Part shown: positions 35,841-56,063 of the stretch, in pieces | How the letters are laid out: each line of letters starts with the position of its first letter | How positions within the stretch are numbered: the stretch's first letter is position 1 | From: Opitutaceae bacterium TAV5 | GTDB taxonomy: Bacteria > Verrucomicrobiota > Verrucomicrobiia > Opitutales > Opitutaceae | Direction: 5' to 3' | Length of the DNA: 64,000 bases | NCBI GenBank assembly: GCA_000242935.3 | Contig: CP007053.1 | Coordinates: forward strand, 7,177,001 to 7,241,000 | Notes under the pieces: generated by a model | What the model was told of the DNA's origin: nothing | The model's database searches: none | The model's input: only the letters and a program-made list of their open reading frames with translations | Made by a program: the position numbers and the translations under genes

Positions 35841-36299
35841 TTACCGCGACGGTTTCACCTGCTCGATCACCGTCACCTTGCCGTCGACAAACGTGACCCG
35901 GAAACGCTCTTCCATGCGCTGCTCGTAGACCGGACGCTCGACCGGCGTGAAAAGCACCCGGTACCCGCCCCGCCCGTCCGGAATCACCTCGCGCCGGTAG
36001 CCGACAAAAACCGTACCCCGGTATTCCTGCCAGTAGGAGTTGTAGATCCACATCGTCTTGCGGCCGGTGTCCGCCGTCAGCGATTCCTGCTTCTCGCTCG
36101 GGTCGCCGAGCGCGATGTACACCATGTCCTCGGTATCGCCGACGTTGATGTGTTTCTCCTTCAGCCGTTCCTGCGTGGACGGATCGAGGTTTTCGAACAC
36201 CTGCGCCTTCTCGCGGCTGCGACTTTCGAAGGTGTTGCAGCCGGAGACGAAAAACAGGGCGGCAAGGAGCGCCAAAAAAGAAAAAGGGTAAAATTTCAT
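35841..36299 (-). CDS. Small BamE/SmpA-like outer-membrane lipoprotein
   Basis: 152 residues from the ATG at 36299. A lipoprotein signal is evident: MKFYPFSFLALLAALFFVSG followed by the lipidated Cys of the lipobox VSGC. The mature part contains the SmpA/BamE-style segment INVGDTEDMVYIALGDPSE followed by TMWIYNSYWQEYRG, and a C-terminal FVDGKVTVIEQ. It would sit in the outer membrane's inner leaflet and might assist beta-barrel assembly, but the resemblance is partial and no bam gene is adjacent. The longer frame from 36347 lacks a signal and is not used. Confidence 0.65.
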   Translation of the reverse strand: MKFYPFSFLALLAALFFVSGCNTFESRSREKAQVFENLDPSTQERLKEKHINVGDTEDMVYIALGDPSEKQESLTADTGRKTMWIYNSYWQEYRGTVFVGYRREVIPDGRGGYRVLFTPVERPVYEQRMEERFRVTFVDGKVTVIEQVKPSR

Positions 36300-36452
36300 C
36301 ACAAAAAAACCTGACCGCTTTTGGTGTTTCGACAAGCGGCAGATCATGGATTTGCGTTTTTTCCGGTTTTGTCCGGACGACCCGTCCCGAAAAAAATTTC
36401 AAAGAAAATGCTCCCGCGATTTGTGCGGCGCGAAAAACCAGGTATCAGGTTT

Positions 36453-36561
36453 CTCAACCCGCTTGATTGGCTGTGTCCGAACGTGAGGGACGCGAGGACA
36501 CATAAAAAAGTCGATCAGGCAAAGGGTTGAGGGAAAGGCCAGGAGAAATCCTGGCCTTTTT
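36453..36561 (+). ncRNA. Candidate structured small RNA with its own terminator
   Basis: Long-range pairing is clear on the plus strand. ctcaaccc (36453-36460) pairs with gggttgag (36524-36531); gcttgat (36461-36467) pairs with atcaggc (36514-36520) including one G-U; the two are joined by an AAA bulge. Inside, tgtgtcc (36472-36478) pairs with ggacaca (36496-36502). Immediately after is a perfect 11-bp terminator hairpin with a T-run. Weak promoter elements, ttgtgc (36421) and tatcag (36443), are at a fitting distance. There is no ORF of note and no plus-strand gene nearby. I do not recognise a known RNA family. Confidence 0.55.
36534..36561 (+). terminator. Intrinsic terminator (11-bp stem, GAAA loop, T-run)
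   Basis: aaaggccagga and tcctggccttt form a perfect stem around a gaaa tetraloop, ending in five Ts. The stronger T-run is on the plus strand. It follows the candidate RNA; on the minus strand it could also help end the AsmA-like gene transcript. Confidence 0.85.
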
Positions 36562-36577
36562 CGTGCCCGCACCGGAA

Positions 36578-36603
36578 GGAGCGGCGGCATGGCAAGCTGT
36601 CGG
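36578..36603. repeat. Palindromic-repeat arm, GGAGCGGCGGCAT type
   Basis: The 26 bases are an exact inverse complement of 54987-55012 in another gap, both sharing ggagcggcggcatggcaagc. It lies just before the end of the AsmA-like gene. Part of the same family as the element in the MGH1-type gene. Confidence 0.6.
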
Positions 36604-36608
36604 CGAGG

Positions 36609-39600
36609 TCAGAACCCGATCGCCTTGCCGATGATGGCCTTGGTCAGCGCGCTCGTGTCCACTTTTTCCAGGGAACCGCCGAGCACCACCGGCGTGAAAA
36701 ACGGCGCATAGCCATCCGCATCGGCCTCGCCGCCGAGCAGGTGGGCTGCTTCCAGCCAGGTGGCGAGTTTGCCCTTGCCGGCGAGGTTGACGTTGAGGTT
36801 CAGCGCCTGGCGCACCAGCGGCACGCCTTCCGCAAAGGTGAGCTGGCCTCCGCCGGTCAACCGCAGCTCCGGCGACACCAGCGTGAGATCCTTGAGCACC
36901 GCATTCAGGTTGTCATCCCGGCTCGCCACCAGGCTGAGCCGGTCGAATTTGATTTCCTCGAAGGAGGAGGCAATCTGCCGGAGCGCGGAGACCACTTCCT
37001 GCGCCGTTTCGGCCGCCTTGGCGGCCTTGCCTCCCTTGCTGCCGAGCACGCCGGAAAGGATGCTCACCGCGGTGGAGGCGAGGTTGCCCGTTTTGTTGAC
37101 CTGTTCGGCGAGATCGCCCGACAGCGCGCGGCAGATGCCGCCGCCCGCGCTGGCGATGCTGAAGTCGCCGCGCACGTCGTCCACCAGTCCGGCCGGCGTG
37201 GGCGCGGCGCCGGTCAGCTTGCTCGCGACGTTGAGCCGGGTTTCGAGCACCGCGGGCTGGCCGGGATTGAACGCGCGCAACCAGGGCGCGGTGGCGAAGT
37301 TGTTGACCGCAAGGTCGGCGGCGAGCGCGTAGGCGTCGCGCTTTTTCGCATCGAAGGTCAGGGCGCCGTTGAGCTTGAGGTCGCTGTCCGCGCCGAAGAT
37401 CGCCTTGATCGCCTCGAGCTTCAGGGCCTCGGGCGTGATGCGGATCGCGCCGCCGACATCGGCGATTTCCAGTTCACCGGAGTACACCACGCGCTTGAGC
37501 GCGAGCGTCACTTCGCCGGTGAGGCCGGCCCAGAGCGGACCGGCGGCGGGTGTTGTCGTTGCCGGCGGCGGAGGCGAGGCGGGAGACGTCGGCGAGGCGG
37601 ACGGAGCGGTGGCGGAATTGTCCGCCGGCACCAGGGCGGCGAACGCCTGCGCGTCCTCGATATAGAACAGGTTGCTCGTGATCTGCGCGCGGGCATCGAG
37701 CGCGTTGCCCGCGGGAGCGGGCGTGAGCGTGGCCTTGAGCGTGAGATCGGAGGCGCGGTTGCCGGCGGCGGCGTTGCGGAGCGTGACCGGAGCGGAAACC
37801 GTGAGCGTACCCGCCGCCGTGCGGCTGACGTCGGCGTCGAGCGTGAGCGCAGGCAACGTCGCGGGAGCGGCGCGCGTGCGCAGGCCGTCAAGTGCGAGTG
37901 TCGCCCTGGCCGCGAGATCGCCGACGGCAGACAGCGTGCCCCGCGCGCTGAACGTGGCCTTGCCCGCCGTCACGCCTTCGAGCGCGGCGAGCAGCGGCTG
38001 CGAGGCGAGCGCGGCGGGCTGCACGGTGCCGTTCGCCTCGAAAGTGACCGGGGCTCCGGCCGCGGTGGCGCCCGCGGCCCGCGCCGCCGCCGCCGGGTCG
38101 ATGGTCTGCCGCGCGCTGGCCGTGAGCTGCACGGCATCGGCTCCGGCCGCTCGCAGCGTGATCTTGCCGATCGAGGCGCTCCAGCCGCTGGCAGCGTATG
38201 TGGCAGCGAGATCGTCCACCGACAAGGCAAGGCGGGCCGCAATCGCGCGGCCATCCTGCGTCACCTCCGTGAGGTTGACGGTCAGCGGTTCGATGGTGGT
38301 GATGCGGGCCGTGTCGCCTTGCAGCCGCGCCACCCATGCGCCGCGCACCGGTTCCCCCTGCACGCGAATCCCGGAGCCGGTGAGGAAGGGCTCGGCCATC
38401 GCCAGCGGCACGCCGTCCAGGGCGACACGGACGAGATCCGCGGAGGTGTCGCCTGCGGTCACGACGCCCGTGGCGAGATCGACGGCGAAAGGCTGCTCCG
38501 CGCGCACCGTCACCAGCGGCTGCCCGGTGGAAACGGTGGCGGAAAATTTTTCGATGCGCGCGGTGTCCCCCGTCAGGGCGGCGTCGAACTCCGTCGCCAC
38601 CACGACTTCGGTGCGCGGCATCTCCGGCACGAAGTCGGCCAGGTTGCCCTGCACCTGGAGGCGGCCCGATCCGGTCGCATTGCCGGAGGCGAAGCCATAG
38701 CTGAAGGAGCCACTGCCGGCCGCCGCGAACTTCGGGAGCACGATGCCCGCCGCGTAAGGCGCGAGATCGGCGTCGCCGAGATCGAGTTGCCAGCTGCCTT
38801 CGACCGCCTGCGCCGCCGGGTCCCGCCGCGCCTCGACGAGCGCGCGGGTGGTGTCGCGGGTTTGCAGCGAAAGCGAATACGCTTCCGGCTTGCCGGCGGC
38901 GGCGGCCAGCGCCGCGACCTTGACCGTCGCCGATTCCTGGCCGGCGCGCGCGGCGAGGTGGAGCGACAGCGAATCGAAACTCCGCGACGTCGGCATGTGC
39001 GCCTCGAGCACGCCTTCGAGAGAAATCTTTTCCGCGCCGGCGCCACCCGGCACATCGACGCCCTCGGCCGTCACTCCCACGGTCAGCTTCCCCGTCTGCC
39101 CCGCCGAAAAATTGCCTCCCCCGAGCGAGATGTCGGCGACCAGCGGTTTTGTTGCCGCCCCCGGCGTGGTGATCACCGTCACGCGCCCCGAACTCTCGAT
39201 CGTTCCCACCGACAGGTCGACGGGCAGCCCAAGCAGGGCGAACAGGCCGTCGAACGGCTCCGGAGCCGCCGGCTCCTTGCCGGTGGCGCCTTTCTCCGCG
39301 CCGGCCGCGACCAGCGCCGCCGGCGTGAGGGTGGCGCTCCAGCCGTTGGCCACCAGCCGGCGCACGTCCACCCGCGAACGCGCCGCATCGATCAGCGGCA
39401 CGTCGAGCTCGACGGAAGGCACATCGAGCAAAATGCCCGGCTGCTCGATCCGCAACCCGGTGACACGCACGCCCGAGAGCCCCGCCGCCACGCGCTCGAC
39501 GGAGGCCGTCATGCCCGGTTGCGAGGCCAGCACCCGGCGGGCGACGGCGGTCTGCACCGCCGGGACGAACGCGAGGGCAATCACCAGCGCGACGAGCACC

Positions 39601-54840: not shown

Positions 54841-55012
54841 GGAGCGGCGGCATTCCTGCCGCTGCGACGAGGCGCAATGCGCCTCGCCACGGGTATCTTG
54901 CGAAGTCGCCCGGCGACCGGCGTACCTGCGTGGGTGTTGCGTGTGCTTCGTCCGGCAATTGCAGCGGCAGGTACCGAGGCCGCAGGCCGACAGCTTGCCA
55001 TGCCGCCGCTCC
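54841..55012. repeat. Interspersed palindromic repeat between helicase and folE2
   Basis: The left arm (54841-54865) is identical to the left arm of the element inside the MGH1-type gene at 16794. A gcagcggcag module (54961) and a right arm 54987-55012 identical in inverse to 36578-36603 complete it. Between lie further hairpin modules (gcgcaatgcgc). The whole gap between the two minus-strand genes is repeat; no gene seen. Confidence 0.75.
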
Positions 55013-55013
55013 T

Positions 55014-56063
55014 TCAGCACACCAGTCCGCGAAAATCCGAAAAATCCGCGGTGTATCCGCCCGGCACGCCCTTGCAGATCACGCTCACGGCGTCGTGCGA
55101 GTGGAGCGATTCCAGATGCGAGCAGGCGATCTCGAAATCCGCGATCCGGCGGTCGGCATCGAGTGCGGCAAAAAGCAGCCGCGCCGCATCCTCGACAAAT
55201 TTCAGGTGCGCCCCGTTGAGCTCGGCAAACGCCTGCTCGTCCTCGCGCCGCACCATCACCTGCGTCTCCGTGGCCAGCGCGCGGATGCAATGCTGCTGCA
55301 AATCCTCGATGGTCACCCGCGCCTTCGGGGCGATTTCCACGCGGAGCCGCGCCTTCGAACGCTGGTTGTGCCCGACGGCGTACACGCCACGCGCCTCGCG
55401 GGCATGCTCGGCCAGCTCCGCGCTGCACGGGCAAGCCGACGAATAGACAAAATCGAATTCGACAAACCTCCGGAACCGCCCCCGCGCATCCAGCCGCCCC
55501 TCGAACACGACGTCGTAGTACTGCCAGCCTTCCAGATCGCTGCGCAGGGCGCGCTGGAGGACCGGATACGAAAACGCCAGCCGCAGCCGCGCATCGAGCG
55601 TCCCGACCTCGCGCCGGTACTTTTTCAGGATGCGCTCCAGCAACTCCGGCGAAAAAACGTCGTCCCGGTGTTCGTAGAACGACCGGATAATCCGGCTCAT
55701 GTTGATGCCCTTGTCCGCGGCCCCGACCGACACCGTGCCGGTGACGCGCGCTTCGAGAGTGACGGTGTCCGGGCTTCCGTGGCGCGCGATTCCCCCCTTT
55801 CCCTTGCCTTTTTTGCCACCGCCGCCCGGCGTGCGGAACCGGAGCGGCAGGCGGAAGCCCGACACGCCGACCTGCTGGATCGGCACGGCCGCCCCCTCGA
55901 TGGCATCGGTCGCCTGGACGATGTCCGGAAGCGTGGCGCGGTAGGCCGGAGTGACCCGGAATCCGGCATCGTAGCCCCGCCGGATACGGGGACCGGCGCC
56001 ACCTTTCGGACTGTGCAGGTACAGAGCAGATTCGGCGGCGGGACTGGAGGTGTTCCTGGACAT
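55014..56063 (-). CDS. folE2: GTP cyclohydrolase FolE2 (type IB)
   Basis: 349 residues from the ATG at 56063. It makes dihydroneopterin triphosphate from GTP, the first step to folate and queuosine, with a non-zinc-only metal requirement. Landmarks are [20 protein letters not shown], the catalytic Cys and neighbours in [16 protein letters not shown], and [19 protein letters not shown], as in FolE2. An unusual Gly/Lys-rich loop [12 protein letters not shown] follows FRTP around residue 85; most FolE2 lack it. Only one GTP cyclohydrolase is visible, so this may supply the pterin pathway. Confidence 0.93.

Follow-up and report, generated by a model that had tools for sequence, protein, structure and literature searches.

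Among described bacterial RNAs, the intergenic, self-terminated sRNAs that act in trans share a promoter-like block, a length of about 110 nt, a terminator, a hairpin head and the lack of a reading frame with the element reported here; they differ from it in that no Hfq was detected in its two hosts, Opitutaceae bacterium TAV5 and Geminisphaera colitermitum TAV2, and in that the element is known from these two species only. CsrB and RsmX/Y/Z resemble it in displaying GGA in a hairpin loop in a genome that encodes CsrA, and RsmY/Z are also of similar length. Unlike these RNAs, the element exposes a single GGA, shows no GGA enrichment and occurs in a genome in which a FliW-like gene adjoins csrA. 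A long rod with a terminal closing stem is likewise typical of 6S RNA, from which the element departs by its length of 110 nt and its own terminator hairpin. No sRNA described in Opitutaceae was found in a limited literature search. Genus-restricted sRNAs as such are common, and on sequence grounds the element would form a new family of the usual type; being compact, with a conspicuous head hairpin, and present in cultured strains, such an sRNA would provide a practical way into RNA regulation in Opitutaceae.

The strain TAV5 has a chromosome of 7,317,842 bp and its host termite is Reticulitermes flavipes (PMC4358385). The analysed window, 64,000 nucleotides at 7177001-7241000 of this chromosome, contains, in the gap between a divergent lipoprotein gene and a convergent AsmA-like gene, a sequence at positions 36453-36562 of the plus strand that is very probably an sRNA gene of a new family. 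The small lipoprotein gene (35841-36299, minus strand) matches no Pfam family, is 63% identical to its TAV2 counterpart at the protein level and is the sole neighbour common to both genomes, lying about 154 nt from the element in TAV5 and 142 nt in TAV2. Lipoprotein homologues occur in 49 of 61 sampled Opitutaceae genomes, many of the 49 carrying several paralogues. On the other side, the minus-strand gene that ends at 36609 is convergent with the element and is probably AsmA-like, a name given by reading its sequence, without a Pfam match. In TAV2 this place is taken by a gene for a membrane protein, which is read in the same direction as the element and starts about 90 nt past the terminator. 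Since the gene beyond the terminator differs between the two genomes, the element would be neither leader nor terminator of that neighbour, and the terminator would serve the RNA itself. A peptide-coding function was rejected, because in every one of the six frames the codon changes between TAV5 and TAV2 are unlike those of a coding sequence (9-11 non-synonymous versus 1-2 synonymous).

The plus strand of 36453-36562 folds into a single rod, built of stems 1, 2 and 3 and a head, and is followed by an intrinsic terminator. The predicted energy of the segment 36451-36563 is -63.0 kcal/mol, as against -30.4 +/- 3.0 for shuffled sequences (z = -10.75; 0 of 200 as low), and the TAV2 homologue reaches z = -7.73. 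Stem 1 pairs 36453-36460 with 36524-36531 over 8 bp and is invariant between TAV5 and TAV2. It is continued by stem 2, in which 36461-36471 pair with 36510-36520 over 11 bp and which carries compensatory changes in TAV2; on the 3' side, the two stems are separated by an AAA bulge (36521-36523) that is AA in TAV2. Stem 3 and the head occupy 36472-36502, with 7 bp between 36472-36478 and 36496-36502, and are nearly invariant. The purine-rich head GAACGUGAGGGACGCGA lies inside stem 3 and presents AGGGA in its apical loop (36486-36490), while the A-rich internal loop at 36503-36509 varies between the two genomes. A sequence-only reading of this DNA had placed a strongly folded RNA at 36421-36561, with long-range stems of 8 and 7 bp, an AAA bulge and an internal 7-bp stem. 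The elements lie where it had put them, but the RNA proper spans about 36453-36562, with 36421-36452 constituting the putative promoter region, and the second long-range stem has 11 bp instead of 7.

The arms of stem 2 read GCUUGAUUGGC/GUCGAUCAGGC in one genome and GCGAUACCGAU/GUCGGUUUCGC in the other, so that 11 of 22 bases are substituted and 10 of 11 pairs are nevertheless kept, by three two-sided and three one-sided changes, with one pair broken in TAV2. Random placement of the same number of substitutions keeps at least 10 pairs with a probability between 0.0005 (even substitution) and 0.005 (transition-rich). The covariation tool's own shuffle control attains the observed level in 58 of 500 cases and is not decisive, since two rows give it little power. 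The covariation is modest because only two sequences exist, and the remaining stems hardly vary and thus neither support nor refute the fold; in the covariation check that the earlier reading had named, stem 2 holds.

The minus strand of 36421-36566 also folds well (z = -7.18), and folding alone therefore does not settle the strand. In the two sequences, stem 2 forms 11 and 10 pairs on the plus strand versus 8 and 9 on the minus strand, where G-U pairs turn into A-C. The tail of five T is found on the plus strand only. Together with an upstream block that keeps its sequence and its distance in TAV2, the G-U pairs and the T-run point to the plus strand as the one probably transcribed. The claimed plus-strand intrinsic terminator is indeed present at 36534-36561, as an 11-bp hairpin with a GAAA loop and five T that is identical in TAV2, and no convincing plus-strand gene that would need it was seen at the TAV5 locus, in line with the earlier proposal. 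A generic terminator scan did not list this terminator, probably because it counts three of its T in the stem.

The putative -35 hexamer TTGTGC (36421-36426) is a weak match to the consensus and lies inside the 9-base block GATTTGTGC (36418-36426), which is kept in TAV2. The putative -10 hexamer TATCAG (36443-36448; TATCTC in TAV2), likewise predicted from sequence, follows at 16 nt, a spacing that puts the predicted transcription start where stem 1 begins, at about 36453-36457. Both GATTTGTGC and TATC keep their distance from the RNA in the two genomes, within an upstream flank that has otherwise diverged to 42% identity; among shuffles, 0.04% contain a 9-base run at an equal offset (P = 0.0004). 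For the promoter-like hexamers proposed earlier, the spacing and the conserved block speak in favour, but TTGTGC and TATCAG are poor by consensus and a sigma-70 scan found no promoter at the sRNA.

A DNA similarity search of 95 related genomes returned TAV2 as the sole real relative, with an alignment of 119 nt at 86% identity. No base has changed in the head, stem 1 or the terminator, and a single one in stem 3. The element occurs once per genome. Allowing up to 3 mismatches, the 25-base head has no further match in 200 Opitutaceae genomes. A covariance model built from the TAV5 and TAV2 sequences scored 128.5 and 127.3 bits on its two sources. Across 252 family genomes and a sample of 372 from the order, no other score exceeded 32.2 bits; with the stricter filters used and a seed of just two sequences, this search could miss a very diverged relative. 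The weak matches of the model in four other genomes were rejected, as they lack the head and resemble common terminators that follow reading frames. Exact 17-base matches to AAAAAGTCGATCAGGCA in several genomes were also dismissed as distant relatives; those read appear to lie within a conserved coding region, which by its sequence appears to be uvrB. The lipoprotein served as an anchor for synteny in other genera, and no sRNA element was found there. An origin from a mobile element was rejected, plasmids, phages and viral contigs giving no match. The conservation in relatives that had been called for as a check is therefore provided by the sister species, and in the data searched the candidate sRNA is restricted to one genus.

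The sequence-only reading could place the pattern in no RNA family, and none in Rfam 15 matches at the gathering threshold. The best match below the threshold is STnc250 (RF01409; 23 bits, cut-off 42 bits), whose terminator region aligns with the sRNA, the match consisting mostly of the terminator. Identity with 6S RNA (RF00013) was rejected, as there is no 6S match at the locus and a normal 6S RNA, the only one in the TAV5 genome, is located elsewhere (C1:1520296-1520477, 67.6 bits).

The AGGGA of the head loop fits the ANGGA motif, which raises the prospect of a decoy that sequesters CsrA in the manner of CsrB or RsmY/Z. Both TAV5 and TAV2 carry csrA, and the motif, which is conserved in TAV2, occupies an apical loop where its GG is free of pairing. 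However, the 110 nt contain four GGA, which is no enrichment (P = 0.32), and only one of them is exposed. In both genomes csrA adjoins a FliW-like gene, so named by sequence reading, and in Campylobacter with such an arrangement CsrA is held by FliW and not by sRNAs (PMC7829508). In addition, the last 60 nt before the start of the flagellin-like gene contain no GGA. For these reasons a CsrA decoy is kept as a rival but judged improbable. The flagellar block of the two strains (L079:506-3030 and L078:111-2830) comprises flgL-like, fliW-like, csrA and flagellin-like genes, csrA being assigned by Pfam and the others by sequence reading.

The folding of the minus strand (z = -7.18), and the lipoprotein gene as the one conserved neighbour at about 154 or 142 nt, would suit a 5' leader of the lipoprotein mRNA, but the poorer pairing of stem 2 on that strand (8 and 9 of 11), the plus direction of both T-run and promoter-like block, and the lack of such an element upstream of lipoprotein homologues in other genera make this very unlikely. 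A riboswitch or attenuator leader of a downstream plus-strand gene is suggested by TAV2, with its same-strand membrane-protein gene about 90 nt past the terminator. In TAV5, however, the next gene is convergent and none follows on the plus strand, so that no same-strand downstream gene is conserved, and the single copy per genome also argues against a leader, which is thus most improbable. Least credible of all is that the hairpin merely terminates the convergent AsmA-like gene and adjoins other structure by chance. It lies about 50 nt beyond the end of this gene at 36609, but is followed on the minus strand by just TTT and then CCC; in TAV2 no gene is seen to run into it from the AsmA side, yet the hairpin is identical, and the other stems are conserved there as well.

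A stand-alone plus-strand sRNA whose head acts in trans without Hfq is rather likely the better account of the whole locus. The RNA would be transcribed from the conserved promoter-like block, starting at about 36453 and ending at the terminator at about 36561, to give a structured product of about 110 nt. Head and stem 1 are conserved in sequence, while stem 2 is conserved in pairing only, which suggests a scaffold with a working head: stems 1 and 2 would present the almost invariant head hairpin GUGUCC-GAACGUGAGGGACGCGA-GGACAC, and the head would act in trans by base-pairing of its loop with a target or by binding a protein. Conserved complements to AACGUGAGGGACG from the head were no more frequent than for a reversed control, and none was orthologous; as no conserved complementary target was found, the step in trans is one that we infer. 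Action would be independent of Hfq, for which (PF17209) neither TAV5 nor TAV2 gave a match in a search whose control matched 5 of 14 genomes. The divergent lipoprotein gene, with which the RNA shares its upstream region, may be linked to the regulation of the RNA. It is possible, though doubtful, that the head hairpin is bound by a protein without a known sRNA partner, in which case the RNA would be the first of an Hfq-independent class of the Geminisphaera lineage.

A CCGGAG-NNA/T-TCCGG-like core in common with the terminator of the sRNA is found in terminators at four other loci (L075, L076, L077 and L094), three from Opitutaceae and one from another family of the order. Beside the sRNA, at 36575-36604, lies a copy of a REP-like extragenic repeat, the imperfect palindrome GGAGCGGCGGCATGGCAAGCTGTCGGCCTTCGGCCTCGGTACCTGCCGCTG, which is broken off where the AsmA-like gene ends; the window holds another copy at 54986-55015 (minus strand), and up to about 38 further matches, some of them weak, occur in the TAV5 genome at E <= 1.
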